Below, in pieces: positions 15,986 through 32,991 of a stretch of DNA of 64,000 bases. The first letter of the stretch is position 1; each line of letters begins with the position of its first letter. The notes beneath the pieces are model-generated. The model saw only the letters and a list, made by a program, of their open reading frames with translations. It was not told where the DNA came from and ran no database searches. Position numbers and translations under genes: made by a program. Origin of the DNA: Vibrio artabrorum (GTDB taxonomy: Bacteria > Pseudomonadota > Gammaproteobacteria > Enterobacterales > Vibrionaceae); NCBI RefSeq assembly GCF_024347295.1, contig NZ_AP025458.1:124001-188000 (forward strand), written 5' to 3'.

Positions 15986-16411
15986 ATGCCTTCTCACTTA
16001 CCTAAATCTTTTAGTAAGCCGTTTTTAAAAGTATTCCATATTATGGAAGCGGTATTGCTCGTGGCCATAACACTGGCGACGTTGTTTGCCATGACGGAAG
16101 AGTTCATGCACGTGTTTTCTGAACGTCGAGTCCAACTCACCGATATTCTTTTGATGTTCATTTACTTGGAAGTGCTGGCGATGGTTCAGCAGTTCGTGAT
16201 GAACGGCAAGATCCCAGTGCGATACCCTATTTATATCGCGATGATGGCGATTGCTCGTTATATCACCTTGGGTATGAAAGAGTTGGATGCGGTACTGATC
16301 GTTTGGCTGTCTGCGGCTGCATTCATCTTAGCGGCTGCCACACTGCTGATTCGAGTGGGGCACTATTATTGGCCATATGTCGATAATAGGACGAATCAGC
16401 CTGATGAGTAA
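15986..16411 (+). CDS. psiE: PsiE family protein (phosphate-starvation-inducible)
   Basis: 141 aa from the ATG at 15986 (MPSHLPKSF); an in-frame GTG six bases earlier is possible. Four predicted membrane helices include VLLVAITLATLFAM, ILLMFIYLEVLAM and VWLSAAAFILAAATLLI. The motif MAIARYITLGMKELD is typical of PsiE. In E. coli psiE is induced by phosphate starvation through PhoB; its molecular role is unknown. It is followed by its own terminator. Confidence 0.82.
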   Translation: MPSHLPKSFSKPFLKVFHIMEAVLLVAITLATLFAMTEEFMHVFSERRVQLTDILLMFIYLEVLAMVQQFVMNGKIPVRYPIYIAMMAIARYITLGMKELDAVLIVWLSAAAFILAAATLLIRVGHYYWPYVDNRTNQPDE

Positions 16412-16435
16412 CGCGGATTAGTCAAGCTTGTATAA

Positions 16436-16467
16436 AAAGAAACCTAGTTTGAATGCTAGGTTTCTTT
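16436..16467 (+). terminator. psiE terminator
   Basis: Perfect 12-bp stem AAAGAAACCTAG / CTAGGTTTCTTT with an 8-nt loop, 24 bp after the psiE stop. The following 255 bp up to the cold-shock gene would hold its promoter and long 5' leader. Confidence 0.8.
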
Positions 16468-16722
16468 CGTAACCACTGGCACAATAAATATTCATCATTC
16501 TTCAAATAACGCTTTACAATGCTACTTAGATCACCAACAATGACCTCGCTCTGTTTTCAGAGTTATTAAATGAAACATCCAGTTGTAAAGTAAAACCCTC
16601 AGTATTGCTTCATTGTTATTCTCAGTGTTTCCCTTGGCTTCATAGATACATTAAATAATTCAAGCTTTCAGCGCATCGCACTTTTGGCGATTAATTTTTT
16701 ATTTTTATATAAGGGACACATC

Positions 16723-16935
16723 ATGTCTAACAAAACAAACGGCGTAGTAAAATGGTTTAACGAAGAGAAAGGTTTCGGTTTCCTAACTCAAGACAACGGC
16801 GGCGCTGACGTATTCGTTCACTTCCGTGCTATCGCTTCTGAAGGTTTCAAGACTCTTAAAGAAGGCCAACAAGTGTCTTTCGAAGTAGAGCAAGGCCAAA
16901 AAGGTCTTCAAGCTGCAAACGTTGTAGCTCTATAA
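16723..16935 (+). CDS. Cold-shock-domain protein (CspA family)
   Basis: 70 aa from the ATG at 16723, preceded by AAGGG. RNP1 (KGFGFLTQ) and RNP2 (VFVHFRAI) are intact, giving a single OB-fold cold-shock domain that binds single-stranded RNA. Its first residues, [14 protein letters not shown], are the family signature. The upstream non-coding stretch of over 200 bp fits the long regulated leader of csp mRNAs. Which paralogue (cspA/C/D/E type) cannot be told, and cold induction is an inference. Confidence 0.9.
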
Positions 16936-16946
16936 GATTTTAAGTC

Positions 16947-16974
16947 GACGCAAGTTGCAACAGCAACTTGCGTC
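16947..16974 (+). terminator. Terminator of the cold-shock gene
   Basis: Perfect 12-bp stem GACGCAAGTTGC / GCAACTTGCGTC with an AACA loop, followed by a pyrimidine-rich tract, 11 bp after the stop. Confidence 0.85.
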
Positions 16975-17157
16975 ACTTTCTCTTTCAAACCTATTCCCCC
17001 CTCTGTTTTACCGTAATACTCTTCTCCACTTGCCATTCCTCCTCTAAATATTCTTAAGTTCTTTTGTACATCGGCTCCGTTCTATCTGTCTTTTGCTCTA
17101 AGTTAATCTCTTGCGTACTGACTTACAAACTAGTCCTGATCGTTATTACTGTCTCCA

Positions 17158-17190
17158 TAAAAAAAGCCCCTAAAACTAGGAGCTCATTTT
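17158..17190 (-). terminator. Probable ancestral yicC terminator, displaced by the element
   Basis: AGCCCCTA (17165-17172) pairs with TAGGAGCT (17177-17184), one mismatch, with an A-run on the left that reads as a U tract leftward. It lies about 65 bp beyond attL on the side where yicC would end in a chromosome without the element. Confidence 0.55.
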
Positions 17191-17249
17191 TAGTTAATCA
17201 ACACTGATTGAGCATAATGGCTATGCACAGCGTATTACTGAAAAGCGGT

Positions 17250-17272
17250 TATTCTATATTTTGAATTTGCTC
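17250..17272. repeat. attL, left attachment site of the yicC-integrated element
   Basis: TATTCTATATT-T-TGAATTTGCTC matches 34453-34475 at 22 of 23 positions (C/T difference at the twelfth base). Read on the minus strand it still encodes the last codons of YicC (EQIQNIE, stop TAA). This is the duplicated gene end left by site-specific integration. Confidence 0.88.
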
Positions 17273-17340
17273 GTGGATTGTTAATTTTTTATCTTTCAAA
17301 AACAATGAGTTAATTTTTTGTTTTGTATATTTAAGGATAT

Positions 17341-17361
17341 TACTACCCAATATACTACCCA
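17341..17361 (+). promoter_or_regulatory. Tandem integrase/excisionase arm-type repeats, left end
   Basis: Two direct copies of TACTACCCA, at 17341-17349 and 17353-17361, are spaced exactly 12 bp apart. A matching pair with the same 12-bp spacing lies near attR. An inverted partial copy (TTGGGT) follows at 17363. Placement just inside attL suggests arm-type binding sites. Confidence 0.6.
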
Positions 17362-17412
17362 GTTGGGTTACATCTCAGTGTCTCTTACAGTGACAATAGC
17401 TCTTTTTTGAAA

Positions 17413-17427
17413 TGATAATTATTTTCA
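17413..17427. promoter_or_regulatory. Fur-box-like inverted repeat
   Basis: TGATAAT-T-ATTTTCA matches the 7-1-7 Fur box (TGATAAT-N-ATTATCA) at all but one arm position. No gene starts nearby: the flanking gene (17739-18617) ends towards it. It could be a relic or serve an unseen small RNA. Confidence 0.35.
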
Positions 17428-17738
17428 TTGTTAGGTGCGGTGTTTTGACCAACCGAAACACTAAGCTGTGAGAGTTATATTTGCATGCTAAGGCAAATAT
17501 GGTGTCATGTAATTCTACCGTAAACAACAGTGTCTTTGTTTTAAACGCTGCTTCATCAGGTTGCTTAAGATGTATTCGATAAACGGAATTTTAATCCCCA
17601 TCTCCACTTCTTGTTAGTATCTCAAGTTCTAGATCGGTACGTCATCAAAACTGTCATATCACGTGTATGATACATGCCTTTATACAACTCCGCTAATGTG
17701 TTTAGACCCATCAAAGTAGGCGGTCTCTCCGTAAATGT
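17428..17738. other. Gene-free stretch at the left end of the element
   Basis: 310 bp with no supported reading frame. A palindromic patch TATCA-CGTGTA-TGATA lies at about 17658-17673. It follows the arm-type repeats and Fur-like site and precedes the stop of the winged-helix gene. Nothing else recognised. Confidence 0.4.
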
Positions 17739-18617
17739 TTACTCCAAAACTTTAAAAATCTGCTGTAAAACGACAGGAGGTATTGGTTCCTCACTATTCA
17801 CGATGAAGCTCTTTAATTCCAGCCGTAGATCGCTCAAATTTTGCAAAAATTGAAAATAATGCTTCTCAGGGGATTCTTGCGATTGATGCTCAGAACTCTG
17901 TTTTTGCTTTTCCTCAGACTCTCCCACGATCTTTTTTGGGGGCAAAAATTGTGACGCAAAATTTTCTGTTACCTGTATAAAAGTGCCAAGACTTAATTTC
18001 CCATGTTTGGCTTTTTCTTTGTGTCGTCTCACATAACCGAGTTGCTCAAGTCGATTTAAAGTATCTGACACTCGGCGAAGACTCATTCCCAATACAATCG
18101 CAATCTTGCTTTGGCTTATCCCTAAACCGTGGGTATTGCGATCAATATTTTTGGCTAAAAACGAGCAAACCAGAATCGATGCTTCCGCAGCATCATAATG
18201 CAGTTCGAGTTTGCTTTTCCAAAAGGTGTTGATGATTTTTGTTCGATTAATCTCTCTCTCGGAATAGTGACTCGTTTGCATATGGCTTTTTGAAATTGAA
18301 GAATACGGTAGCAGAATAATCCGCTTTTGTTTTTTAAGAAATGGGTGATCTTTGAATAGGCGGGTCTTATGGAGTTGCCTTATGGTTCGAGCTTCTTCTA
18401 GCTCTTTCATTAGGCTAACTCTCTTTCTATCATCAGGCCGGAGAAGTGTCGAAACCAGCTTTTCTTCTCCTTCATGGTAAAGATAGCAATTCCCTTTAAT
18501 ATCGAAAGTGTTAATGAAATTGATGATTTCCACGTTAGCGTTCAGATCGAGTGTTGGTGTTTCCTTCATGGTTGTAGTGTCTACTGATGTATCTTCATCT
18601 ATGTCGATTGATGGCAT
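17739..18617 (-). CDS. Winged-helix protein, possible replication or regulatory protein of the element
   Basis: 292 aa, family not recognised. Residues about 145-200 form a helix-turn-helix / winged helix with SQSKIAIVLGMSLRRVSDTL followed by NRLEQLGYVRRHKEKAKHG, typical of MarR-like and plasmid-replication DNA-binding domains. The N-terminus is acidic. A charged Ser/Glu/Gln linker (about 230-250) precedes a helical C-terminal piece. It is the first gene inside attL, divergent from the Gp2-like genes across a 380-bp spacer, a position often held by replication or control genes in satellites. A replication role is inferred from position only. Confidence 0.55.
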   Translation of the reverse strand: MPSIDIDEDTSVDTTTMKETPTLDLNANVEIINFINTFDIKGNCYLYHEGEEKLVSTLLRPDDRKRVSLMKELEEARTIRQLHKTRLFKDHPFLKKQKRIILLPYSSISKSHMQTSHYSEREINRTKIINTFWKSKLELHYDAAEASILVCSFLAKNIDRNTHGLGISQSKIAIVLGMSLRRVSDTLNRLEQLGYVRRHKEKAKHGKLSLGTFIQVTENFASQFLPPKKIVGESEEKQKQSSEHQSQESPEKHYFQFLQNLSDLRLELKSFIVNSEEPIPPVVLQQIFKVLE

Positions 18618-18966
18618 GACTTTTACTCTAATTTACGCTTGGTAAGGTGTAATCCGATGATATATATAGATATTTTAAGTTATTTTTTTCACTTTTTATG
18701 TGAGTGAACTCCAGAAGTAAAAATGCATGAGCCGTGATTTTTGATAAAAAATGAAGGTTAGCTGGTTAGATTTAGCCGATGTGAAGGCTCAGTAATCATC
18801 AAAAAATAGGGGAGAGTAAATCGAGGGGGATCGGTAATTAATAATATATATACCCATCTACTCACCTAATCCTAGGCCTAAGCCAATTACCTCATCACAC
18901 GATATCTTGGTTGGGGATTGGTTCCCCTACCCAAAGAGAGACTTAGAAAATAACGTCACTCTCAGT
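18618..18966. other. Divergent control region between winged-helix gene and Gp2-like array
   Basis: About 350 bp, AT-rich. It contains runs of ATATATA at 18660 and 18843 and a palindromic CCTAGG. A stem-loop at 18909-18931 has GGGGA / TCCCC extended by GGT/ACC across one mismatch. It must hold the divergent promoters and could include an origin; no iteron array was found. Confidence 0.4.
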
Positions 18967-18992
18967 ACCTATGTCATTAACAAAACATAGGT
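18967..18992 (+). promoter_or_regulatory. Shine-Dalgarno-sequestering hairpin upstream of Gp2-like gene 1
   Basis: ACCTATG (18967-18973) pairs with CATAGGT (18986-18992) around the 12-nt loop TCATTAACAAAA. The AGG of the 3' arm is the only ribosome site, 8 nt before the ATG at 19000. It is the first of three such hairpins with different stems and related loops. Confidence 0.65.
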
Positions 18993-18999
18993 CTCTATC

Positions 19000-19644
19000 A
19001 TGTCTAAAAATCTAACCATCACACACGAATCCACTTTCAACGGAAACAAGGTATACATCGACAAGGAGGGTTTGGTCGTTGAATACCTAGAAGGGATAGA
19101 GTCAGTCCTTGAGAAAGCTCTAGAGCAATACGCAAGACTTTTTATCGTTCGAGTGGACCTTAACTTACCAACAGACTTTAGAGGGGATGATTCAGCAGTG
19201 ATGACTCGTTTCTTCCGCTCTTTGAAATCTCAGGTAGCGGCATATCGAAGACGTAGTGCTCGCCTAAATGGCAAACCCTATCGTGAAACCACCATTCGAT
19301 ATGTATGGGCTAAAGAGTGTGATACCTCATCAAGCAGTCATTACCACGTTGTGCTTATCTTTGACCGGAATATCTTTCGCTCTCTGGGGGATTTTGGAGA
19401 GTATCAGCAAAGTTTGGCTAACCGTATTCGTCATGCATGGAAGCGTTCAGTGGAAGCCTCGTACTCAGGCAAAGAGAAACCAGCTATCCATTTCTCCAAA
19501 CAAGGCCAGTATCACTTGCTACGTAACTCTGAGGAGTTTGATGAGGTGTTTCAGTCCGTCTTTTATCGACTAAGTTACCTAGCGAAGAGAAGAACCAAGC
19601 ATTTTGGCAAACGTATGAACAACTTCGACCATAGTCGTAAATAG
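19000..19644 (+). CDS. YfjJ / inovirus Gp2-like protein, copy 1
   Basis: 214 aa. It matches the family seen as YagK/YfjJ in E. coli cryptic prophages and Gp2 of filamentous phages. Visible features are RVDLNLPTDF (about 51-60), IRYVWAKE before a His-hydrophobic-His triplet in SHYHVVLIFDRN (His 114 and 116), and VFYRLSYLAK (about 188-197) with two tyrosines. The HYH plus downstream tyrosines look like an HUH endonuclease arrangement; that is inference. It heads three tandem paralogues 60 bp apart and has a hairpin over its ribosome site. Confidence 0.75.
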   Translation: MSKNLTITHESTFNGNKVYIDKEGLVVEYLEGIESVLEKALEQYARLFIVRVDLNLPTDFRGDDSAVMTRFFRSLKSQVAAYRRRSARLNGKPYRETTIRYVWAKECDTSSSSHYHVVLIFDRNIFRSLGDFGEYQQSLANRIRHAWKRSVEASYSGKEKPAIHFSKQGQYHLLRNSEEFDEVFQSVFYRLSYLAKRRTKHFGKRMNNFDHSRK

Positions 19645-19666
19645 CTTAAAAATTACGGTAGTTACA

Positions 19667-19699
19667 GTTCCTGTGGGAATCACAACAAACCACAGGAAC
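19667..19699 (+). promoter_or_regulatory. Shine-Dalgarno-sequestering hairpin upstream of Gp2-like gene 2
   Basis: Perfect 10-bp stem GTTCCTGTGG (19667-19676) / CCACAGGAAC (19690-19699) around the 13-nt loop GAATCACAACAAA. AGGA in the 3' arm is the ribosome site, 7 nt before the ATG at 19705. Confidence 0.72.
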
Positions 19700-19704
19700 C
19701 AATC

Positions 19705-20379
19705 ATGATTCATCAACTCAACGTATCTCATCAAAGAGTCCACACCATTACTCATGACCGAACCTTTAATGGGAAGCCACTCTACTACTTTGAGGATGGT
19801 CTCGTTCTCGAATACCTAGAGGAGATCGACCGAGTGCTGACTGAAGCTCTAAACCAATACCCAAGAATCTATGCTGTTCACATCAACCTAAACCTACCGA
19901 GTGACTTCGGGGGTGATTACCTAACGGTGTTTGCCCATTTCTTTCGTATTTTGGAATCGGAGACTAATGAGCTCTGTAGAGACAAATACACCGACAGAAC
20001 TTATCAATACCAGCAAACGGTCATTCGCTATATCTGGGCGAAGGCCAGTGAATCCACCAGCGATCACCATCATCTTATCTTGCTCTTTGATAGGGATCTC
20101 TTTCAAAACTTAGGCACTGGTCGAGAGGGTTGGGGGCGTTTTCTCTACAAAAAAGTGAGGAAGACATGGGATAGGGTGGTTGAAGCTTATTACAGCCAAC
20201 CATGCTCAGGATTAGCTTATTCCCCTACGAATGAAGGTTTTGAACTATTCTCCGATACAGAAACATTCCCGTTACAGTTAAACGAATTCTTCTATCGAAT
20301 CAGTCGTCTCGCGGAGCCCATTGCCAACCGGAACGATCACCGCAACAAGAACTTTGGTTGCAGTCTCGACTCACCTTAA
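19705..20379 (+). CDS. YfjJ / inovirus Gp2-like protein, copy 2
   Basis: 224 aa paralogue of the genes on both sides. Shared blocks are HDRTFNGKPLYY near the N-terminus, HINLNLPSDFGGD (59-71), VIRYIWAKA, and the His-x-His triplet in DHHHLILLFDRD (His 121 and 123). FFYRISRLAE near residue 200 matches VFYRLSYLAK of copy 1. It keeps all the residues that would form an HUH site. Spacing of 60 bp to copy 1 contains hairpin 2. It is probably part of one rightward transcript with the rest of the array. Confidence 0.75.
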   Translation: MIHQLNVSHQRVHTITHDRTFNGKPLYYFEDGLVLEYLEEIDRVLTEALNQYPRIYAVHINLNLPSDFGGDYLTVFAHFFRILESETNELCRDKYTDRTYQYQQTVIRYIWAKASESTSDHHHLILLFDRDLFQNLGTGREGWGRFLYKKVRKTWDRVVEAYYSQPCSGLAYSPTNEGFELFSDTETFPLQLNEFFYRISRLAEPIANRNDHRNKNFGCSLDSP

Positions 20380-20392
20380 AAAAATACAGCGC

Positions 20393-20433
20393 GAGTAATG
20401 CCTATGTCATTCACACACAAAAAGGCATTACTC
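20393..20433 (+). promoter_or_regulatory. Shine-Dalgarno-sequestering hairpin upstream of Gp2-like gene 3
   Basis: Perfect 10-bp stem GAGTAATGCC (20393-20402) / GGCATTACTC (20424-20433) around a 21-nt loop ending ACACACAAAAA. The 3' arm abuts the ATG at 20434 and contains the AAGG ribosome site. The CCTATGTCATT stretch also occurs in hairpin 1. Confidence 0.72.
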
Positions 20434-21033
20434 ATGGCGAATAGAACCTACCTCCCAAGCATTACTCTTGATAGAACTTTTGAAGATTACCCGCTGTATT
20501 ACAGCGACAAGGGGTTATACGAGTCAGCACTGACCTCAATGGTCGATGTTTTTGAACAGGCACTCAGTCAGTTTGACATCGCTCTTGCTACACGTTTGGA
20601 CGTGTTTTTGCCAGAAGACCATCAAGATACCGACCTCAGTATCCTCAACGATTATTTTAATCTGCTTAAAGAAAAGCTTGATACGGATTCTCTGTTCTAT
20701 GTATGGCGTAAGCGGGAAGACAAGGTGCCATCCCACAACTATCGCGTGATGTTGTTTAGTGACTATAGCCAGCACTTTGGTCCCGCTATTTGTTGGGACA
20801 AGCGCAATGAATTGGTTGAGCACCTTAAAGCGGCTTGGCAAGAAGCGATAGAAAAGCACTACAGCGGCGAAGCGCGTTCATTGGTGTTTTTCAATGACCG
20901 AGGCAATTATGGGGTGGGGATGCGTTGTCGTAGCAAAGACGCCAACATAAAGAACACGCTCTTCCACCGCATGAGCAGCCTTGCTGAAGCGTGGGAAGAA
21001 AAGCGTTATTGCTTTGGCTCTAGCTTGGAGTAG
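20434..21033 (+). CDS. YfjJ / inovirus Gp2-like protein, copy 3 (divergent)
   Basis: 199 aa from the ATG at 20434, chosen because MANRTYLPSITLDRTFEDYPLYY aligns with the N-termini of copies 1 and 2. An in-frame ATG 36 bases upstream lies inside the hairpin. The family blocks remain (RLDVFLPEDH, FYVWRKRED, LFHRMSSLAE). The His-x-His triplet is changed to HNYR (101-104), and the downstream YR becomes HR, so a catalytic site of HUH type would be lost. It may act as a regulator or partner of copies 1 and 2. Confidence 0.7.
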   Translation: MANRTYLPSITLDRTFEDYPLYYSDKGLYESALTSMVDVFEQALSQFDIALATRLDVFLPEDHQDTDLSILNDYFNLLKEKLDTDSLFYVWRKREDKVPSHNYRVMLFSDYSQHFGPAICWDKRNELVEHLKAAWQEAIEKHYSGEARSLVFFNDRGNYGVGMRCRSKDANIKNTLFHRMSSLAEAWEEKRYCFGSSLE

Positions 21034-21100
21034 ACCGACTGCATTTTTTTACAGTGGCGGCTTATCACATGGGTATATACAAAGCAGGAGACGATCCCCA

Positions 21101-21307
21101 GTGAAAATGAGATTTCTACGACTTAAAGACGTGATGTCACTAACAGGGCTAGGCCGCTCCACTATCTACAAGTTCATGGCTGATGAAACCGATTTTCCGA
21201 AGAGTGTCCCACTTGGCGGACGAGCGGTAGCTTGGGTAGAAAGTGAAATCGAGGAATGGATGGAATCGCGCCTGAGTATGCGAGACAACCAAGAATCCTT
21301 TCAGTAA
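21101..21307 (+). CDS. alpA: AlpA family transcriptional regulator
   Basis: 68 aa from the GTG at 21101, which has AGGAG 10 nt upstream; the ATG two codons later is spaced less well. A helix-turn-helix lies in RLKDVMSLTGLGRSTIYKFM, followed by FPKSVPLGGRAVAWVESEIEEWM, the standard AlpA/excisionase-like fold. In CP4-57 and P4 satellites AlpA activates integrase or excision genes. Here it follows the Gp2-like array and is likely the element's excision/activation regulator. Confidence 0.87.
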   Translation: MKMRFLRLKDVMSLTGLGRSTIYKFMADETDFPKSVPLGGRAVAWVESEIEEWMESRLSMRDNQESFQ

Positions 21308-21389
21308 CACAAACATCAAATCACATCATCAATGGGGCGCAGGCTAAGCAAAGTCATGCGCCCTTTTTGCAATTAGAGAGAGATAAAAA

Positions 21390-21827
21390 ATGAGCTATTC
21401 AATTTACGTAGACGGCGCTGCACCAAACAACCAACACGGATGTACACGAGGTGGCATTGGGCTGGTGGTTATGGATGAAGACAATGAGATTGTGCATGAA
21501 GAGAGTCTCACTATTGACCGCAAAACGAATAGTGCTGAGCTTGAGCTACTGGCCTTAGTTGAGGCGTTGGAGTACGCAGAAGATGGGGACGTGATTTACT
21601 CAGATAGTGATTACTGTGTAAAAGGTTTCAACATCTGGATGGACGATTGGAAAGACCGAGGTTGGCGCCGTGCGGATAAGAAACCCGTCAAGAATCGTCA
21701 CCTGTGGCAACAAGTCGATGAGCTGAGTTCCAGGAAGTATGTTGAAGTTGAAAAGGTAAAAGCACACTCTGGTGTTGAAGGAAATGAGAGAGCTGACTTG
21801 TTAGCGGTTGAAGCCGCGGCGTTATAA
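21390..21827 (+). CDS. RNase H (type I) encoded on the element
   Basis: 145 aa. The active-site acids are all visible: Asp 8 in YVDGA, Glu 50 in SAELELLALVEAL, Asp 72 in YSDSD, and Asp 136 in the KAHSGVEGNERAD motif with His 126. It cleaves the RNA strand of RNA-DNA hybrids. The chromosome normally has its own rnhA, so a mobile-element copy may serve element replication, for instance primer removal or R-loop control. It is separated from alpA by 82 bp and has its own ribosome site (AGAGAGA). Confidence 0.9.
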   Translation: MSYSIYVDGAAPNNQHGCTRGGIGLVVMDEDNEIVHEESLTIDRKTNSAELELLALVEALEYAEDGDVIYSDSDYCVKGFNIWMDDWKDRGWRRADKKPVKNRHLWQQVDELSSRKYVEVEKVKAHSGVEGNERADLLAVEAAAL

Positions 21828-21951
21828 GGTCAGTGGCACGCAGCTTGTGGGATGTACCCCACAAGCTGTCATTCTTATTTATCATTACTATTGCTGGCTT
21901 CGAGAGTTTCTCTTAACGTTTCAGTATTGCCCAAGGAACGAGTTATCGTTA

Positions 21952-23052
21952 ATGCTCAACGAAAAGTTTAGAATGCCCGTTATCAAGTTGGGCAACCCAT
22001 TTTTACCTTCGCCGGATGAAGTCTCAGCGTTTTTGGGACTCCCTGTTTCTCCAAGAGAAAAAATAAAGTGGTTAAATGCGTCAGTGGTCAAGAGTAAGAT
22101 CCCGACAGACCGCACGCTTGATAACATAAGTAAGGAGGGAATACGGTGGAAATCGATACGTCAGTTTGCTTGGCAATTGGCGAGAGTGTTTGTTCGTAAA
22201 GGATGGTCCCTTAACGTTTCTCTCCCCGATGGTGGTATTCATAAATCAGACTTATCTTTTTGGTGGTCACACACTCTTAAAGGCGTTCAGCAAGGGTTGT
22301 CTTCGACTTCTGGTGAGTTGAATCTCGGGCTCTTGGTTAGCTATATCGATAAGCGCTGCGTCGCTTATCAAAGACAGTTGGCTTTTATTCAGGATGCTCC
22401 CGATATCAATGAGAACAACCAACATGAGTTAATTTCAGGTTATTACCTACCAGTCCTCGACTTTACGTTGCTTAGTGAGCAAGAAAAGGCGCTAGTAAAA
22501 AACTGGCTCAAATCCCCCAGTGAACTTGCCTCAAAAGAAACTGAGCAGGCGATGCTTTGTTTCTGTCATGATTTTTGGTTGTCCTTAATGTCGGTCATTG
22601 ATGTCATGTTTCTTGAAGATTGGGATAAACACTATGCAGAATACACTCCGAGTGTTCATGCGCAGCAGTACGGGTTGTTCGGGCAGGTTTTTAATAGAGA
22701 AGAAAGAACATTTCTTGGCAAGTTTTTTGGCCTAATAAAAGAGCAGACTAATCAAACTTACGCGCAGTTGTCAGAGTATGTTGTCTTACCCGTTAGTGAG
22801 TATGAACGAAATGGTCTGTTAAAGCGCGATGTTCAACAGGCACGCTTTAAAGAGTGGCGTAGCGGAAAAAGCCTCCCTTCTGTAGAAGCCTTAAGTACGT
22901 TTTTTGCCAATATGGATGCAGGGCGTCAAGGTGCGGACTTACTGATATATGCATTGTTCATGAGAGCGCTCGATAAGGTGGGTAGTCGCTCTCTACCTGA
23001 TATCTACACGACAAGTCGTTATCAACGTTACTTCCAACATTACGCTCCCTAG
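21952..23052 (+). CDS. Uncharacterised element protein
   Basis: 366 aa from the ATG at 21952 (MLNEKFRMPVIKLGN), 125 bp after the RNase H stop. The frame is open upstream to 21808 inside RNase H, but that start has no support. No family recognised. There is no signal peptide or clear membrane segment; the protein is rich in aromatic residues, with many WK/WS pairs. Near the C-terminus, FKEWRSGKSLPSVEALSTFF looks like a short helix-turn-helix-type segment, as does FIKEQTNQTYAQLSEYVVL-like sequence before it. A regulatory role is a guess. Confidence 0.6.
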   Translation: MLNEKFRMPVIKLGNPFLPSPDEVSAFLGLPVSPREKIKWLNASVVKSKIPTDRTLDNISKEGIRWKSIRQFAWQLARVFVRKGWSLNVSLPDGGIHKSDLSFWWSHTLKGVQQGLSSTSGELNLGLLVSYIDKRCVAYQRQLAFIQDAPDINENNQHELISGYYLPVLDFTLLSEQEKALVKNWLKSPSELASKETEQAMLCFCHDFWLSLMSVIDVMFLEDWDKHYAEYTPSVHAQQYGLFGQVFNREERTFLGKFFGLIKEQTNQTYAQLSEYVVLPVSEYERNGLLKRDVQQARFKEWRSGKSLPSVEALSTFFANMDAGRQGADLLIYALFMRALDKVGSRSLPDIYTTSRYQRYFQHYAP

Positions 23053-23080
23053 GCTGCGCTATGGCAGCCTAGGTTTGCTT

Positions 23081-23194
23081 CTATTTTTTGCTTGGCGGAT
23101 TATTGGTCCGTCCACCACCTGAAGGATTCGAGGTGCCATTTTTGGTCGGCCATAGTGGGGCGTTGTTTGTTGATGGTGTTTGTTTATTTCCCAT
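23081..23194 (-). CDS. Small Asn/Pro/Gly-rich protein (37 aa)
   Basis: A small gene easily missed by length cutoffs. It begins MGNKQTPSTNNAPLWPTKNG and ends NNPPSKK, with a GGG run before RTNN. A consensus ribosome site (AAGGAG) lies 6 nt upstream of its ATG, the strongest reason to call it. It is strongly hydrophilic with a single Trp and no transmembrane stretch. It converges on the 366-aa gene with 28 bp between stops. Function unknown. Confidence 0.6.
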   Translation of the reverse strand: MGNKQTPSTNNAPLWPTKNGTSNPSGGGRTNNPPSKK

Positions 23195-23443
23195 GAGTAG
23201 CTCCTTGTATTGAGATTGTCGACGAAAGTTCGTCGATAATCATCATGCATGAATCCAGAGATTCACAGGGAGGTGGGAAAGAGCGAAAGTTACTAGGAGT
23301 TACTAAGTGCTTTTTCGTTGGTGTCCAATATGGATATGTGTGTTATCAGCTTCAGTAAGCCCTTATGTATTGCTTGGTACTCCGATAGAGTTAACTCGCT
23401 TTTTTAACAGATAACATATACCTTCAAACTGGTGTATTGAGAC

Positions 23444-23484
23444 AAAAAAAGAATGGGGAGCGTGATTGCTCCCCATTCTTTTTT
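23444..23484 (-). terminator. Terminator of the small secreted-protein gene
   Basis: Long stem AAAAAAGAATGGGGAGC / GCTCCCCATTCTTTTTT with a 6-nt loop, A/T runs on both sides; it lies 17 bp after the stop of the leftward gene at 23501. Confidence 0.88.
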
Positions 23485-23500
23485 ATCGTTGCTGGTGGTG

Positions 23501-23728
23501 TTACTTTTCTTTGATTGCGTCACAGCCTTCAGGAACGGTGATGCTCGCTACATCCTTGCCTTCCTGTTGCGCCGCTTTCACATCCATTTTGTATTGAGTG
23601 CATTTGCCCACACTAACGTTGACGGCTCCCGAATCTGCGGATGGGTTGCCGCCCAGTGTTCCACCAGCAAAAGCGGAAGAGGTAGAGAAAACTAAAGCTG
23701 CTGTGATAAGTAGAGATGACTTGTTCAT
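23501..23728 (-). CDS. Small exported protein
   Basis: 75 aa with a clear Sec signal peptide: MNKSS, hydrophobic core LLITAALVFSTSSAFA, cleavage predicted after AFA at about residue 21. The mature 54 residues hold two cysteines (GKCTQY and PEGCDA) that may form a disulfide. No family recognised. A good ribosome site (AAGGATCA) precedes the ATG. It follows the lipoprotein gene by 47 bp on the same strand and is probably cotranscribed. Confidence 0.7.
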   Translation of the reverse strand: MNKSSLLITAALVFSTSSAFAGGTLGGNPSADSGAVNVSVGKCTQYKMDVKAAQQEGKDVASITVPEGCDAIKEK

Positions 23729-23775
23729 GGTTGATCCTTACGAGTTGGTTGAGTGTGTTATTGAGGAATTAAGAG

Positions 23776-24144
23776 TTAGAAGGTGTAGACAAAGGTGCCA
23801 GCACTGGAGGTGACTTCGATTTCTTTCACGCTGTCCACGGTGCAGTTGTTGCTGTATCCGGTGTAGGTCTGGCCGAACTTCAATGAAACGTTTCTTGATA
23901 GCTCTGAGGTTGTGCCTGCGGGTAATCGGCAGTTACCACGGTTAATCACTACATTGCTTATTACGGTGCTGTCGGTGATGGCTTGTAGGTCAAAGACCAA
24001 TGTTCCCCAGTGAGGGTTAGCAGATATCGACACTTCAATATCTGCTGTTGCTGCTTGAGTCTCTTCTTGGTCGCCACAAGCAGTGAGCCCGATAAACAGC
24101 ACGCTCATAGCGGCGTATCGGAGTAGGGTGTCGGTTAATGTCAT
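23776..24144 (-). CDS. Predicted lipoprotein
   Basis: 122 aa. The N-terminus is a lipoprotein signal with lipobox LTAC (VLFIGLTACGDQEET), lipidated Cys near residue 23. The mature part has two further cysteines (RGNCRLP and SNNCTVD) and ends with a beta-strand-like VTSSAGTFVYTF. No family recognised. It sits between the WYL regulator and the small exported protein on the same strand, so the element may encode a small envelope module. A superinfection or adhesion role would be speculation. Confidence 0.7.
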   Translation of the reverse strand: MTLTDTLLRYAAMSVLFIGLTACGDQEETQAATADIEVSISANPHWGTLVFDLQAITDSTVISNVVINRGNCRLPAGTTSELSRNVSLKFGQTYTGYSNNCTVDSVKEIEVTSSAGTFVYTF

Positions 24145-24174
24145 AACGGTGCTCTCCTTATCGGTGAGTGAAAT

Positions 24175-24909
24175 TCAGGGTATACTGATTCCATCGTGTT
24201 CACGCATGAACCGCTCAAGATTGAAATCAGTCGGATAGGTAAAAGAAAACGTCGATACACTGGCCTCATCAATCAAAGGCAAGGCTAGGGTGCGTATCGT
24301 GTGTTGACCGGATAATCGAAAGAGCAGCAAGAGCGCGTCACACTGAACCGAGAGTCCCAGTGGTTCAATGAGCGCCTTCTCTTGCTGCAAAACTTGACTC
24401 GATACCTTAAGCATACGGTTGTTCAGCAATGCCGTGTGTACCGCATTCAATACTTGCCTCTGCTCATTACTCCACTCACGAATAGTGGGCAATGCCACAT
24501 GGACTTTGGCTAACCATGCTTGCTCTTTTAAATGCTCTGAGCCCTTGTGGGATAAAGGTTTGTCTCTCTCCGAGGAGCGACCTTGCCCATAATTCAGTGC
24601 ATTAGGAATAAGCGGCAGTAAGTACTTGTTGGTCAACTGCCAATAGAGCATTTCCTGCTTATCGAGCTTCCATAATTGCTCAGAGGTTTTCCGATAAACA
24701 TGAGGCATGCTCATCGAATCACACTCCACGTTAAACACCTCCACAATGACTTCATCGAGGTAGCGTTTAATGCTGCGCGTGGTGCGATGGATATCGAGTA
24801 GGGCTAACTGCTGCTGCAACTCCCTAACGGTAATCCATCGATGTTGAGGAATAAGCATCAGCGTGTGCAGCAAAGCGGATAACCCTTCAATGCTGGTTTT
24901 ATTGCTCAT
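24175..24909 (-). CDS. WYL-domain transcriptional regulator
   Basis: 244 aa. The N-terminal winged helix (residues about 8-60) contains ITVRELQQQLALLDIHRTTRSIKRYLDEV. The C-terminal half matches a WYL fold: ALIEPLGLSVQCDALLLLFRL, then a beta-rich segment ending TYPTDFNLERFMREHDGI. WYL proteins sense ligands or nucleic acid and control defence and mobile-element genes; CP4-57 carries the related YfjR. It lies near the middle of the element, divergent from nothing and upstream of two envelope genes. Confidence 0.78.
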   Translation of the reverse strand: MSNKTSIEGLSALLHTLMLIPQHRWITVRELQQQLALLDIHRTTRSIKRYLDEVIVEVFNVECDSMSMPHVYRKTSEQLWKLDKQEMLYWQLTNKYLLPLIPNALNYGQGRSSERDKPLSHKGSEHLKEQAWLAKVHVALPTIREWSNEQRQVLNAVHTALLNNRMLKVSSQVLQQEKALIEPLGLSVQCDALLLLFRLSGQHTIRTLALPLIDEASVSTFSFTYPTDFNLERFMREHDGISIP

Positions 24910-25047
24910 GACTACGCTCTCAATACATCAAAGCTCCACACCGGAGTCGGACATTTAATGTCGGGAGAATAGAGGTGGGTCAGACACATAATGTCCAACG
25001 GTTAAAATGCAATCAATTCGTTTCATAAAAGTGTGAATTAATTAACA

Positions 25048-25224
25048 TTAATCAGGTTTATGCTTATCACTGAGCTCGGCAATGGCCGCCAGTAACCCAA
25101 TTAACAGCAGCACCAGAAACCCTAAACTGGATAGTGCTCCAATAGCGCCGAAGAACGGGGAAAGTGAAAACAACGTGATGAGGGCAGTGACAAGTTTGAT
25201 GGTTTGTAGAAGGAGGGAGGTCAT
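25048..25224 (-). CDS. Small membrane protein (58 aa)
   Basis: A short gene that starts 3 bp after the DUF2787-like stop at 25228, so it is likely translationally coupled. It begins MTSLLLQTIKLVTALITLF. Two hydrophobic helices are visible, about residues 4-30 and 31-50 (LGFLVLLLIGLLAAIAE), followed by a charged tail LSDKHKPD. Function unknown. Tight packing with the upstream gene is the main evidence that it is real. Confidence 0.6.
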   Translation of the reverse strand: MTSLLLQTIKLVTALITLFSLSPFFGAIGALSSLGFLVLLLIGLLAAIAELSDKHKPD

Positions 25225-25227
25225 GAG

Positions 25228-25671
25228 TTATTGCGGAGTGACGGCTATCTCGTTGTAGGAGTCCATATCAACATAGGCAAGAAAGTTATTCTCCCATAGC
25301 CGATACAGCTCTTTAGCATCACGGCTACCTTGCATCGGTAGCCAGCCACGATAGGCCACAAAGAACTGTCCAACCCGAAAATCAAAATCCAAGTTGCGCT
25401 CTAGCTCTGGATAGTAATTCCTCATATAAGCAAAGTCGGTGATGTACTCAATACTCCATTCCCCTGTTGAGGTTTGGCAAATCGCCATCTCAACCGGATG
25501 GAACCCGCCTTCTTCCGCGCTGTAACTTTTATCGCGAAAGTTAAACACCAGATAACGGCTGGTGGTCAGTGCTTCATTGCTCAGCAAATGAGCGGTGAGC
25601 TGTTCACTTAACAGCTTATGCAGTTTCTTAGACACAGGTAGTAAGGATGCAGTGAAGATTAATTTAGACAT
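25228..25671 (-). CDS. DUF2787-like protein, copy 1
   Basis: 147 aa. The block LVFNFRDKSYSAEEGGFHPVEMAI is the family's most recognisable part and aligns with [22 protein letters not shown] of the neighbouring copy. DUF2787 proteins are frequent on Vibrio and SXT-type mobile elements; their function is unknown. The C-terminal half keeps DFAYMRNYYPELERNLDFDF. It follows copy 2 by 49 bp on the same strand. Confidence 0.68.
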   Translation of the reverse strand: MSKLIFTASLLPVSKKLHKLLSEQLTAHLLSNEALTTSRYLVFNFRDKSYSAEEGGFHPVEMAICQTSTGEWSIEYITDFAYMRNYYPELERNLDFDFRVGQFFVAYRGWLPMQGSRDAKELYRLWENNFLAYVDMDSYNEIAVTPQ

Positions 25672-25720
25672 AGTGAGTCCTCCTTGTTTCAGGATTCAAA
25701 TAAGAAATACAGAGTGAGAA

Positions 25721-26164
25721 TTATTGGAACGTGCCGACCATCGTCAGTTGAACGTCATCAAAGACGTTTCTGGATAGATGGCGAACAAAGGCTTTCATCC
25801 ATACCGAGAGCAGCTCTTGTACCTCTGGGTGGGATAAATCCGTGCTCCCCACATCAGGTTGATAGCACCAGCGATTAGCCAGATGAAAGTACAACTCAGG
25901 CTCAACGGTTGTGCTGTTGTCATCGGGATAAGAGAAGCTGGCAAAGAACACCACCAGCCAAGGGCTTGAGCCTGACTCACGTTTAAGCTGCACCTCAATG
26001 GGGTGCAAACCTTGTCGATGTCGGTAGTAACTCATTTGGCGGCAGTTCAATACGAGTCGTTCCGCATTGTCCAAGATGTTGTATCTATTCAGAAGTGCTT
26101 CCAGTGACGCATGTAAAGCATCATCAATAGAAAGCTCACCATAATGTAGCTCAATCATAACCAT
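25721..26164 (-). CDS. DUF2787-like protein, copy 2
   Basis: 147 aa paralogue of the next gene downstream. Shared landmarks are [19 protein letters not shown], an aromatic [10 protein letters not shown] segment, and an [15 protein letters not shown] block matching the DFDFRVGQFFVAYRG region of copy 1. The ATG at 26164 overlaps the RadC-like gene's 3' end by 10 bp, so the two are translationally coupled. Function unknown; cotranscription with RadC-like genes is common on vibrio elements. Confidence 0.68.
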
Positions 26165-26628
26165 CCTCTCTCTGCAAATGATGTACAGGTTTTGCCCGTC
26201 ACGATATGGTCAAGCACTCGAACATCCACTAGTGCGAGCGCGTCTTTGAGTCTTTCGGTTATGCGTCTATCGGCTTGAGACGGCTTTGAGTCTCCAGATG
26301 GATGGTTATGGGCAAATATCACCGCTGCTGCATTTACTTCTAATACCGCTTTCACCACTTCTCGCGGGTAGACGCTGGCGGCGTCCACCGTTCCTTGAAA
26401 CAGTTCTTTAAATTCAATCAGTCGGTTTTGGTTATCCAGTAGCAATAAGGCAAACACTTCACGCTCATGGCTGCCTAGCTTACAGCGCACATACTCTTTA
26501 GTGGCATCAGGATTGGTTAGGGCATCACCACGCACGTAGCGTGTAGCCAGTATCTCAGCGGCATGCTCTAGGATTTCATTTTCCTGATAGCGTTGCTGCT
26601 TTTGGTAATCGGAAGTTTTGGGATTCAT
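26155..26628 (-). CDS. RadC-like JAB-domain protein of the element
   Basis: 157 aa, shorter than chromosomal RadC and lacking its helix-hairpin-helix N-terminus. The JAB metalloprotease-like motif is intact: [21 protein letters not shown], then [11 protein letters not shown] (H-x-H-x10-D type). Its C-terminus resembles the chromosomal radC at 40290-40964, which also keeps HNHPSG. CP4-57 and P4-like islands carry such proteins (YfjY type); their role is unknown and DNA repair is doubtful. It heads the leftward operon. Confidence 0.82.
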
Positions 26629-26965
26629 TTCAAGCTCCTGTCGGAATCAATGATGGGGTTTCACATTGATGACATATGCCTGAAGATTTTTGGATTGAGG
26701 TGGATGTTGTTTTTTGTTTTGGGCAAAAATACAAGATTATGTGGGTAGTTTTATGTATTTAGTAATGTTCATAGAACTCAGCTTTGATTTTAAGGTAATA
26801 TGCAACAAGTGATGCGGTTAGAGTCTAAGGTACTGAGCTAGACATATTTCCCTGACGTTACCTCAATTTTTTAGAAATTTTAATGCTTTGGGCAAAGGGA
26901 CGGTCGACATAAAGCTTATATTCAGTAAAATGCTATTAAAGAGATGATGTAGAGAATATTTAAAA
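26629..26965. promoter_or_regulatory. Control region before the methyltransferase operon, with TTTGGGCAAA repeats
   Basis: This 337-bp divergent spacer joins the element backbone to the cargo. TTTGGGCAAA, a near-palindrome, occurs at 26718-26727 and 26887-26896. The second copy sits next to a candidate promoter: TCGACA (26904-26909), 16 bp, TAAAAT (26926-26931), 35 bp upstream of the methyltransferase ATG. Autoregulation through these sites is an inference. The stretch is AT-rich with no supported frame. Confidence 0.45.
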
Positions 26966-28105
26966 ATGAATAATGAGCTGAAAATAGTCGATTTGTTTAG
27001 TGGATGTGGTGGTTTTGGTCTGGGGGCTGAGTTAGCAGGTTTTAAATCGGTTGTAGCAGTTGATATTGAGGCTAATTTGCAATCGGCCTATTCGAGAAAC
27101 TTTCCTGAAACTAGAACTCTTTTGAGTGATATCGCTCAAATGGACTCGGAGTCTTGGGGGCTGATTCTAAATAGACAGCAAATTGATGGTGTAATCGGTG
27201 GCCCTCCTTGTCAAGGTTATAGCAGGATGGGGCACTCAGATACAAATGACCCTCGCAGAACATTACTTGCTCATTTTTTTCGAACGATCAACATCATTAA
27301 GCCTAAATTCTTTGTCATGGAGAATGTTGAAGGATTGCTTGATGATAAGAATAAATATGAACTTGATGCTGCACTCGAAATAATAGATCCCCAGTATAAG
27401 GTTCTTCAACCGGTAGTCGTGAATGCGTTAGATTATGGGGCGCCTACGAGTCGAAAGAGAGTAATCGTTGTTGGTTATATGCCGGAGTTTGTTTCTGAGA
27501 TTCATGAAACGGAGTTAATTCCGGTAAACTCTAAAAGGACTACGGTTGGGGAAGCTATTTTAGATATCAACGAGCCTATACCTCAAACAAAAGATAAAAC
27601 AGATTTTGGTTGGACTACATATAGAACTGAGAGGGACTTGTCGGAGTATGCAAAGTTGATGAGAAGTTTTCCACCTAAAGGGTTAGGAGACCCTGAAATG
27701 AATAAAAAGTTATTTCAAGGATTAGTTTCCGGAAACTTTGACACTAGACATACGCCTACAGTACGAGAGAGGTATACGCGCCTAAAGCAAGGACAAATAG
27801 ATAAAACCAGTAAAGCAAAAAAACTAGAACTCAATGGTTTTTGTCCAACTCTTCGCGCTGGTACTGGAACTGATAAAGGGAGTCATCAAGCTGTTCGTCC
27901 TATTCATCCTAATTCAGGGAGAGTTATAACAGTGCGTGAAGCCGCTAGACTTCAAGGTTTCCCTGACTGGTTCACCTTTCATGCTACCAAGTGGCATAGT
28001 TTTAGGATGATTGGTAATAGTGTTTCTCCGCTTGTTTCTCGAAGAATACTTGGTTTGATAAAGAGTCGGTTAATGAGTACGCAGAATATAGCAAAAGCAA
28101 TTTAA
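26966..28105 (+). CDS. C5-cytosine DNA methyltransferase
   Basis: 379 aa, complete. Motif I is DLFSGCGGFGLG (9-20). Motif IV holds the catalytic Cys 82 in GGPPCQGYS. Motif VI is ENV near 119-121. Motif VIII is in SRKRVIVVG, motif IX is REAARLQGFPD, and motif X is GNSVSPLV. It transfers a methyl group from SAM to cytosine in DNA; the target site cannot be read from sequence. It starts the cargo operon, 19 bp before the first GHKL ATPase. Its 3' end also exists as a decayed copy at about 30157-30505. Base composition is visibly AT-richer than the backbone. Confidence 0.93.
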   Translation: MNNELKIVDLFSGCGGFGLGAELAGFKSVVAVDIEANLQSAYSRNFPETRTLLSDIAQMDSESWGLILNRQQIDGVIGGPPCQGYSRMGHSDTNDPRRTLLAHFFRTINIIKPKFFVMENVEGLLDDKNKYELDAALEIIDPQYKVLQPVVVNALDYGAPTSRKRVIVVGYMPEFVSEIHETELIPVNSKRTTVGEAILDINEPIPQTKDKTDFGWTTYRTERDLSEYAKLMRSFPPKGLGDPEMNKKLFQGLVSGNFDTRHTPTVRERYTRLKQGQIDKTSKAKKLELNGFCPTLRAGTGTDKGSHQAVRPIHPNSGRVITVREAARLQGFPDWFTFHATKWHSFRMIGNSVSPLVSRRILGLIKSRLMSTQNIAKAI

Positions 28106-28124
28106 TAAATTTTAGGATGGCTAG

Positions 28125-30005
28125 ATGGAACAAAATACTTCAGTAAAATCATTGAACAACAAGGAGCATCGTGAGGTTGTGCGGTTAAAAACGGGAATTG
28201 ATCCTAGATTTTTAGCTGACACGTTGACTACTGATATTGAACTTACTGATGCATTGTTTGACTTGATAGATAACTCCATCGATGCTGCACGAGATCAAAT
28301 TCTTAATGGACCCCATGAAACAGATTCTCGTGGTTTGCCAAGTAATTATTCTGGCTATGAAATTAAATTGAGATTTTCTCGAGAAAGCATCTTAATAGAG
28401 GATAATTGCACCGGAGTCGGGACTCAAACTCTTGAAGAAAACACCTTTTACACAGGACGACGTTCTGACCATAAGTATGGTATTGGATATTATGGACTTG
28501 GGCTAAAACGAGCATTATTAAAAGCCGGTAGCCGTTATGGGATGATAACTGATAATGGGGATTATCAATATAAGTCTCGTTTTGACATGGCAGCTTTTGC
28601 TTCTGATGGAGATGTACAGTTGTTGGCTGAGCGTTCACCATCAACAGATAGACTTCGCACCGTCTTTGTTGTTTCTTCTTTATACGAAGAAACAACATCA
28701 CAAATACATAATGCCGATTGGATTAACTCCTTAGTTAAGAGCTTAGAAGTCCGTTATTCGATTTTTATTAGTAAGGGACTAAAAATTAAAGTCGTTTGTT
28801 CTTTAGATTCTTTAACCGATACATCTTTTATTAATCCCACAGTGCCTCAGTTGAGGAATGAACTGATAGCTCCACTGAGACAAAAATTCGAGTTTGGAGG
28901 CGTCTCATGTGATTTTGAAACAGGCATCCATGCAAATTATCTTTTTCCAGGAGAGTATGGACATACGCCGAAATGTAATGAAGAGCTAACTGATCAATAC
29001 GGTGTATATTACATATTTAATGACCGCGTTATTGTTGAAGCCAGCAGAGAGAAAAAGCATGGTTTTACCACTAACTGGCACTCCGAATATGGCGGCTTTG
29101 TATGTTTAGCCCATGTAACCGGTTCTAGCCCTAAGGATCTTCCTTGGAATACGGCTAAAACTGATGTTAAGTTATTCAGTCCTCTTTTTATCAAGATTAG
29201 GGAAAACGTCGAGCCTTTAGCTAAAGAGTATCGTTCGAAAGCTAAAAAGTTGATAAATATATGGACGAATAAAGAAACCAAATCGTTGCCAGAAGAACAA
29301 CGTAAGCAAATTTTTGCCGCTAAAACTGGCGTCAAAAAGTTAGATAGATCGAATGTATCTGCTTCAACTTTAACAACACATAAAAATAATCCTAACAATA
29401 CCTCAATTACAACCCTTCTTGCTCCAAAAGAAACTAAGTCTCCTACATTAAGTACTGCTAAAAATAGCGTCAAAGCAGCGAGAAACAATTCAAATAAGCA
29501 TTCTAAGTCTTGGAAAACCATACTTCCAGATTACTTTCCAATGAGTGGAGACGCGATTTTTGATCATTTAGCTCTTGAAGCCACGACGATTGTGATCTCG
29601 GAAGTACCAAACTCTGCTAGTTTACTTTATCGCTCACTTTTTGAAGCCGCGTTTAAAGCTTTTGCGAAAAAACATTCGCTACATGATCAAATCAAAGAGC
29701 ATTACTATACAAAAGGTGAGGGACGCAAAAAGCAGCACGATAGCGATTATGTCAAAAAACGTACATTGGATCTTTCTATGTGCGCAGGGTGGATAGTTGA
29801 TAATGATAGCCTGTACCCTTCTGATATGAAAAAGCGCTTATCTTTATGTGCTAAAAGGTTTAAACAAGAGGCTCCGGTTCTCAATGGATTAGTTCATGGG
29901 AATCGTGTTTTGGGTAATGCGAATGACTTGTTTAGTATGCGTGATGCGACAATAGAGTTGTTAGAATTTTTAGCTGATGGCAAGCCAAACTTAAATGGTG
30001 CCTGA
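28125..30005 (+). CDS. GHKL ATPase, paraMORC-like, copy 1
   Basis: 626 aa. The ATP-binding boxes are clear: N box ALFDLIDNSIDAA (Asn 50), G1 IEDNCTGVG (91-99), G2 GIGYYGLGLKRA (about 119-130). An S5-like second domain follows (YYIFNDRVIVEA through KTDVKLFSPLFIKIRENVE). A Thr/Asn/Lys-rich linker (about 410-465) precedes a helical C-terminal domain with LLYRSLFEAAFKAF and LNGLVHG. MutL/MORC-type ATPases of this sort occur in restriction-modification contexts (paraMORC of Iyer, Abhiman and Aravind). Probably the ATP-driven part of a defence system; partner nuclease not seen. Confidence 0.78.
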   Translation: MEQNTSVKSLNNKEHREVVRLKTGIDPRFLADTLTTDIELTDALFDLIDNSIDAARDQILNGPHETDSRGLPSNYSGYEIKLRFSRESILIEDNCTGVGTQTLEENTFYTGRRSDHKYGIGYYGLGLKRALLKAGSRYGMITDNGDYQYKSRFDMAAFASDGDVQLLAERSPSTDRLRTVFVVSSLYEETTSQIHNADWINSLVKSLEVRYSIFISKGLKIKVVCSLDSLTDTSFINPTVPQLRNELIAPLRQKFEFGGVSCDFETGIHANYLFPGEYGHTPKCNEELTDQYGVYYIFNDRVIVEASREKKHGFTTNWHSEYGGFVCLAHVTGSSPKDLPWNTAKTDVKLFSPLFIKIRENVEPLAKEYRSKAKKLINIWTNKETKSLPEEQRKQIFAAKTGVKKLDRSNVSASTLTTHKNNPNNTSITTLLAPKETKSPTLSTAKNSVKAARNNSNKHSKSWKTILPDYFPMSGDAIFDHLALEATTIVISEVPNSASLLYRSLFEAAFKAFAKKHSLHDQIKEHYYTKGEGRKKQHDSDYVKKRTLDLSMCAGWIVDNDSLYPSDMKKRLSLCAKRFKQEAPVLNGLVHGNRVLGNANDLFSMRDATIELLEFLADGKPNLNGA

Positions 30006-32961: not shown

Positions 32962-32991
32962 AAGGATGCTAATTGCATCCTTTTTCTTTTT
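32962..32991. terminator. Terminator between cargo and integrase
   Basis: Stem AAGGATGC / GCATCCTT with TAATT loop and T-rich tail; it ends the rightward cargo transcript and overlaps the end of the convergent integrase gene. Confidence 0.8.

Follow-up and report, generated by a model that had tools for sequence, protein, structure and literature searches.

Structured leaders that bury the Shine-Dalgarno sequence of inovirus Gp2-like genes in Vibrio satellite-type islands: a likely default-off translational gate

Why should three adjacent genes of an integrated island each carry a different hairpin over its own ribosome-binding site (RBS)? The genes in question lie in a 64,000-nucleotide (nt) stretch of Vibrio artabrorum (contig NZ_AP025458.1, assembly GCF_024347295.1; hereafter the window), stand in tandem, and belong to family PF11726 (YagK_YfjJ_C, "inovirus Gp2"), whose profile the products Gp2-1, -2, and -3 match with 219.5, 171.5, and 113.2 bits, respectively, against a curated cut-off of 25.8 bits. 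An initial annotation had described an inverted repeat with the Shine-Dalgarno (SD) sequence in its 3′ arm before each gene, and had proposed a selected structure serving either translational autoregulation by an RNA-binding Gp2-like protein or DNA recognition by HUH-like proteins. We find the leader to be real, widespread, structured, and wider than first described. Judging from sequence, its likely role is that of a default-off translational gate on the early genes of satellite-type islands, and the hairpins, which occur in Vibrio and some relatives, probably keep such islands silent until opened, perhaps by a helper phage.

All three stems in the window are perfect (8–11 base pairs, bp), as annotated, and hold an AGG-type SD within the 3′ arm, 7–8 nt 5′ of the ATG (Table 1). 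Measured against 200 dinucleotide shuffles, the RNA folding z-scores of hairpins 1, 2, and 3 were −3.58, −3.39, and −5.03, respectively. The span first annotated, positions 18967 to 20433, takes in the three hairpins and two of the genes, but gene 3 extends to position 21033. A covariance-model search of window positions 16000–30000 against Rfam, with E-values up to 1, returned no family at the three hairpins. Its sole matches lay elsewhere, one to mir-627 (far under the cut-off of that family) and one to the cspA thermoregulator (Table 1).

We searched for PF11726 genes by profile in three sets of genomes. Matches were found in 30 of 80 genomes from the genus, in 42 of 121 from the family (a set that overlaps the first), and in 10 of 229 from the class, the genome of the window being counted among the 10. 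The resulting survey set comprised 120 distinct genes with a callable start, starts being called by SD strength and blind to hairpins; three gene-1 starts that the SD rule had put at TTG were moved by hand to the ATG, and L046_6 (without a callable start) and genes aligned only from profile position 60 on were left out. Ninety-six of the 120 scored above 175 against the profile, 94 of them from Vibrionaceae, with L109 (Pseudomonas) and L060 (E. coli) also in this high-score subset; 151 genes drawn from these loci and from the window served as controls. A folding z below −2 was found for 79 of the 96 high-score leaders and 85 of all 120, vs. 9 of the 151 controls, and for 6 of the 24 low-scoring PF11726 genes. 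The stem score reached at least 7 in 78 of the 96 high-score genes vs. 14 of the 151 controls, which places the leader hairpins beyond chance. In most PF11726 leaders the SD lies within the hairpin, whose end is close to the ATG.

Because many surveyed genes are related, counts of clusters are fairer. Clustering at 60% protein identity gave 39 clusters scoring above 170, of which three consist of a lone gene from outside Vibrionaceae; an SD hairpin was present in half or more of the members in 31 of the 39, and the median z was below −2 in 29. Three-gene arrays occurred in ten genomes of the genus and family sets (11 arrays, two of them in the genome of the window), and related arrays did not lack the hairpins, a lack that would have refuted the initial proposal; they were present in 10 of 10 gene-2 and 12 of 13 gene-3 leaders (60% clusters). 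Outside Vibrionaceae, a clear SD hairpin was seen in E. coli STEC411 and on a Proteus plasmid, and none was seen before K-12 yfjJ or on the Psychrobacter plasmid pA41H1.

The genome of the window itself holds PF11726 matches at eight places in four loci, one of which is a second three-gene array. In that array, gene 1 has a CTATCTA-type hairpin in which the SD sits at the loop end, gene 2, which carries an in-frame stop, has the hairpin GTTCCTGTGG/CCACAGGAGC, and gene 3 has CAGTACTTATG/CATAGGTACTG. A singleton at C1:1629326 has the hairpin TTTCTATACC/GGTATAGAAA, and the copy at C1:710811, which adjoins a DUF3987 gene, has none. The hairpin of the interrupted gene 2 (L046 / G000:C1:2552231-2552857, L004) is still intact, with one U.G pair. 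In L020 / L045 (G068:C6), most of gene 2 has been deleted, and two pairs are broken in the gene-2 hairpin left behind (a single case, judged by eye), as if selection on it had ceased.

The stems differ in sequence and keep their pairing. At the innermost six positions, 96% of positions paired within their own hairpin, a figure inflated because detection picks the best stem, vs. 45% when arms were swapped between clusters. Under the structure of the window, twelve gene-3 leaders had 95.5% of cells paired vs. 92.7% in shuffles (0 of 500 as high) and 31–49% under slid structures. Two-sided changes numbered three, a figure reached by 2 of 500 shuffles, and all three came from one sequence, L046; one further pair passes through G-C, G-U, and A-U. 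With the z survey, the stem scores, the clusters, and the loop motif given below, these orthologs support the proposal that differing stems with pairing and SD burial kept represent a selected structure. As to which strand folds, 86 of the 120 genes had a stem of score at least 6.5 ending at −12 to +2, giving 50 distinct stems; on the sense strand these contained 27 G.U vs. 11 A.C (p 0.014 assuming independence, the stems not being wholly independent). The sense strand is therefore the folded one, whether as mRNA or as top-strand DNA.

The loops are A-rich (47% vs. 41% in the flanks), and UAAC, UCAC, or GAAC, a motif set picked post hoc, occurs in 15 of 31 cluster loops vs. 4.2 in shuffled loops (0 of 500 as high). 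The shared loop motif of the initial annotation is thus real, but looser than claimed, and it suggests a binder. That the leaders are RNA thermometers, or chance structures in AT-rich sequence, is highly improbable: SD-burying hairpins of moderate stability would indeed melt with heat, and the leaders are AT-rich, but controls from the same loci seldom show such a hairpin, and a thermometer has no need of a shared loop motif.

An unsupervised motif search of 50 hairpin-bearing leaders (hairpin masked, near-identical leaders thinned, four non-Vibrionaceae leaders left out) found a W-tract/TWAC box, TWAAAAATWACRRC, upstream of the stem. It scored above 5 in 39 leaders, starting −60 to −47 from the ATG and ending 0–12 nt 5′ of the stem, with a log-likelihood of 103 vs. 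35–42 in four mononucleotide-shuffled sets. Such an AT-rich box at near-constant distance would suit passive insulation, in which the hairpins silence read-through transcripts from outside and a promoter at the box, possibly that of a helper phage, bypasses them. Precedents for this exist, among them tnpA of IS200, the gene of an HUH transposase. In the available excerpts, the 5′-leader stem-loop of tnpA sequesters the RBS of a mobile-element gene (PMC12594629), as the present leaders appear to do, but in a single insertion-sequence group and with no upstream box mentioned, rather than in many gene clusters, paralog arrays, and some alpA genes. Likewise, T4 gene e, I-TevI, and Aeh1 mobE are mobile or late genes with RBS-hiding hairpins, and in gene e and I-TevI an AT-rich late promoter at the 5′ arm lets the RNA skip that arm (PMC3014915, in part). 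Here, by contrast, if the box were a promoter centered at −10, an estimate from spacing would put the transcription start at the 5′ arm or immediately upstream of it, and the transcript would retain the hairpin instead of bypassing it. Nor does the box stand out as a promoter motif in pTD1, a Vibrio jumbo phage and the one phage scanned, where 3 of 46 upstream windows over 50 kb gave a hit; in discussing the box as a jumbo-phage early promoter we refer to the phiKZ sequence TATATTAC (PMC7058600, in part). We consider passive insulation a reasonable but unlikely alternative.

Box, SD hairpin, and ATG were combined into one descriptor. Across the 677 kb of loci retrieved, with overlaps counted in, it gave 76 distinct hits, vs. 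15 in locally shuffled sequence. Fifty-six sites lay before PF11726 genes (assigned by profile), 4 before alpA, and 16 elsewhere; among the last we recognized by eye one disrupted Gp2 gene (L004), one disrupted alpA (L032), and one radC (L140). Gp2 leaders had served to train the matrix, and the loci had been collected around Gp2 and alpA, so these counts describe association within islands rather than exclusivity across the genome. Of the 52 alpA leaders in a set thinned of redundancy (alpA genes under 60 bits left out), 16 had a z below −2 (controls, 9 of 151), and the SD or ATG was paired in 33 vs. 25 of the 151 controls; in some the ATG and not the SD is buried, another architecture with the same outcome. 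The box matrix scored at least 9 in 7 of 63 alpA leaders, most at a similar distance, and others show a T-tract version by eye. The radC leaders L023, L025, and L140 have an SD hairpin, in L023 and L140 directly 3′ of a ATATATTAC stretch.

Gp2 genes that follow a DUF3987 primase gene mostly go without the hairpin. Six Gp2 leaders in this position (L167, L169, L171, L172, L173, and E. coli yfjJ) have no SD hairpin; L170 is ambiguous, with a TTG start call and a possible hairpin, and L168, in two pieces, is unreadable. The alpA leaders of DUF3987 islands include strong SD hairpins in L167 and L168, weak ones in L169, L170, L171, L178, and K-12, and little structure in L172 and L173. We infer that the gate tends to occupy the first gene of a unit.

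These distributions bear on a strict autogenous operator, in which each Gp2-family protein would bind the loop of its own mRNA and repress itself, like T4 gp43. The loop motif speaks for it, and the T4/RB69 gp43 operator, a hairpin close to the RBS of a gene for a replication protein, has a UAAC loop, also among the motifs found here, and mediates autogenous control (PMC3014915). The gp43 hairpin differs in lying about 40 bases upstream of the start, its operator overlapping the RBS (PMC3014915, in part), while in the present leaders the stem includes the SD. Also fitting is that paralogs lacking the catalytic Tyr have retained their leaders, as binders could. But some alpA and radC leaders carry the hairpin, most DUF3987-linked Gp2 genes go without it, and the motif is missing from 16 of the 31 cluster loops, so that we regard the strict operator as doubtful. 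Of the autoregulation first proposed, translation control stands as the likeliest use, and a switch confined to Gp2 is disfavored.

The other early proposal concerns DNA. Protein 1 has the HUH and Tyr-xx-Lys motifs (H114-Y-H116, E106, Y193, K196), with H114, H116, E106, Y193, and K196 each invariant in 49 aligned sequences, and an HUH/RRM-like fold is at best weakly indicated; in proteins 2 and 3 the Tyr is replaced, as is the second His in protein 3. By motif, an intact HUH active site is predicted for the gene 1 product alone, so that the HUH-like label holds for one of the three proteins. Gene 1 of the array apparently falls into three separate 60% clusters (L041, L042, L043, L087; L039, L040, L046, L088; L001, L044, L086) while genes 2 and 3 remain unchanged, membership being partly inferred from cluster sizes and hairpins; the array member with active-site residues may be swapped. 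In the DNA reading, the HUH-type Gp2 would nick at the TWAC box and recognize the hairpin, the element being an origin or end, with the SD overlap secondary or with Gp2 binding both DNA and RNA copies. Against this stand the position of the hairpin over the SD, ending near the ATG in most leaders; the retention of the element by two of three paralogs despite the lost catalytic Tyr; its presence before some alpA genes, which do not encode HUH proteins; and the absence of a box-plus-hairpin module from pA41H1 and of the element from most DUF3987-linked Gp2 genes. We judge a DNA site quite unlikely.

Translation control is the best explanation because the SD lies in the stem, the distance to the ATG is near-constant, the stems are re-drawn, and the ATG is buried in some alpA leaders. 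Several results nevertheless weigh against a general gate, besides the inflated own-pairing figure and the concentration of two-sided changes in L046. Eight of the 39 clusters fell under the threshold: L006, L028, and L029 are genes adjoining a DUF3987 primase gene, L065, L093, L102, and L109 show weaker, nested, or ATG-covering pairing by eye, and the last is E. coli yagK. Two of the five gene-3 measures did not exceed shuffles (both-side-changed cells, 95 of 500 shuffles as high; pair types, 447 of 500), and a cruder script run on all clusters, with crude arm placement, found a pair retained after 216 of 419 single changes and after 43 of the 111 double ones. The G.U bias is equally compatible with a top-strand DNA hairpin, and the box scored below 5 in 11 of 50 leaders. 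Of the 16 alpA leaders with a z below −2, at least two (L150, L034) form, by eye, their hairpin elsewhere than at the SD, and the alpA of the window island has a weak hairpin and no strong SD hairpin.

In the translational gate that we favor, the 5′ arm would pair with the SD in the mRNA, and translation is predicted to be off or very low by default. The closed gate would keep the HUH-type protein and its two paralogs silent while the island is integrated, as it would the AlpA switch in some sister islands. It would be opened or locked by a trans factor that recognizes the A-rich loop of the UAAC/UCAC/GAAC type, or by a helper phage inducing a change of state. Leaders of the same kind before alpA argue for a factor common to island, helper, or host, and our tentative guess is another island, helper, or host factor; autogenous Gp2 is a weaker guess, and a gate that purely passively silences read-through transcripts a weaker one still. 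Box and hairpin might even form a shared mobile helper sensor, by which Gp2, alpA, and sometimes radC are transcribed but locked and a single trans signal at helper entry unlocks all of them. We hold this to be rather improbable; candidate signals would be an RNA-binding protein of the phage, a phage polymerase that initiates at the box, or titration of Gp2 onto a matching single-stranded DNA origin, in which case the mRNA hairpin would mimic the DNA site cut by Gp2 and replication would release translation.

Table 1. Positions of the leader elements and neighboring features in the window.
Feature	Position	Strand	Details
Hairpin 1, SD-sequestering	18967-18992	+	8 bp, 10-nt loop CATTAACAAA; arms 18967-18974 ACCTATGT / 18985-18992 ACATAGGT; SD AGGT 18989-18992 in 3′ arm; ATG 19000
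Hairpin 2, SD-sequestering	19667-19699	+	10 bp, 13-nt loop GAATCACAACAAA; arms 19667-19676 GTTCCTGTGG / 19690-19699 CCACAGGAAC; SD AGGA 19694-19697; ATG 19705
Hairpin 3, SD-sequestering	20393-20433	+	11 bp, 19-nt loop; arms 20393-20403 GAGTAATGCCT / 20423-20433 AGGCATTACTC; SD AGG 20423-20425; ATG 20434; pairing kept in orthologs
W-tract/TWAC box, gene 1	18944-18957	+	TAGAAAATAACGTC; motif scan, score 14.1
W-tract/TWAC box, gene 2	19646-19659	+	TTAAAAATTACGGT; motif scan, score 15.3
W-tract/TWAC box, gene 3	20377-20390	+	TAAAAAAATACAGC; score 15.4; overlaps gene 2 stop codon
T-tract box version before alpA	21042-21055	+	CATTTTTTTACAGT; by eye; low matrix score, −1.3
Gp2-1	19000-19644	+	PF11726, E 3.6e-65; HUH-type, HYH and YxxK present
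Gp2-2	19705-20379	+	PF11726, E 2e-50; Arg at catalytic Tyr position (SRLAE)
Gp2-3	20434-21033	+	PF11726, E 1.6e-32; HNYR and SSLAE replace HUH and YxxK
alpA	21107-21307	+	PF05930, E 5.2e-27
radC	26155-26628
DNA cytosine methyltransferase	26966-28105
GHKL-type-ATPase-like gene (by eye)	28125-30005		PADLOC PD-Lambda-5_A, E 1.3e-8
GHKL-type-ATPase-like gene (by eye)	30517-31917		matches nothing
Integrase	32990-34216	−	adjoins gene read as yicC
cspA thermoregulator	16549-16977		Rfam, E 5.6e-28

The genes around the array resemble those of a satellite. The three Gp2 genes are followed on their 3′ side by alpA, an RNase H gene, and further genes including radC, the DNA methyltransferase, and the integrase, so that the window island holds the gene set of an I55-type satellite (integrase, alpA, Gp2, RadC, and a helix-turn-helix (HTH) gene, the last with sub-threshold winged-helix matches). 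No tmRNA or tRNA was found in the window, and integration downstream of a tmRNA, as in the I55 type, was accordingly not seen. The two GHKL-like genes adjoining the methyltransferase possibly form an island defense cassette with it.

I55 itself, with genes for integrase, AlpA, RadC, HTH, and Gp2, was shown to be a jumbo-phage satellite in Pseudomonas and one of a family (PMC12595487). The window island resembles that family in gene set but sits at another site (beside the gene read as yicC), and has three Gp2 genes. It also shares alpA with the Vibrio satellite PICMI, where, according to excerpts of PMC10803314, expression of alpA is necessary and sufficient for activation, and whose authors ask how the helper phage switches on the early genes. 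Hairpins are not mentioned in the excerpts of either the I55 (PMC12595487) or the PICMI (PMC10803314) account, and our literature searches found no description of these leaders.

A common leader architecture here recurs, with independent stems, before an HUH-type gene and often before the AlpA switch across many islands; RBS-hiding hairpins have, to our knowledge, been known one gene or element at a time. If the leader is a lock, the question of helper activation raised for PICMI would reduce to a simple reporter experiment, the poorly understood YfjJ/YagK genes would gain a sequence tag, and the paralogs without catalytic residues would become candidate RNA or DNA binders.
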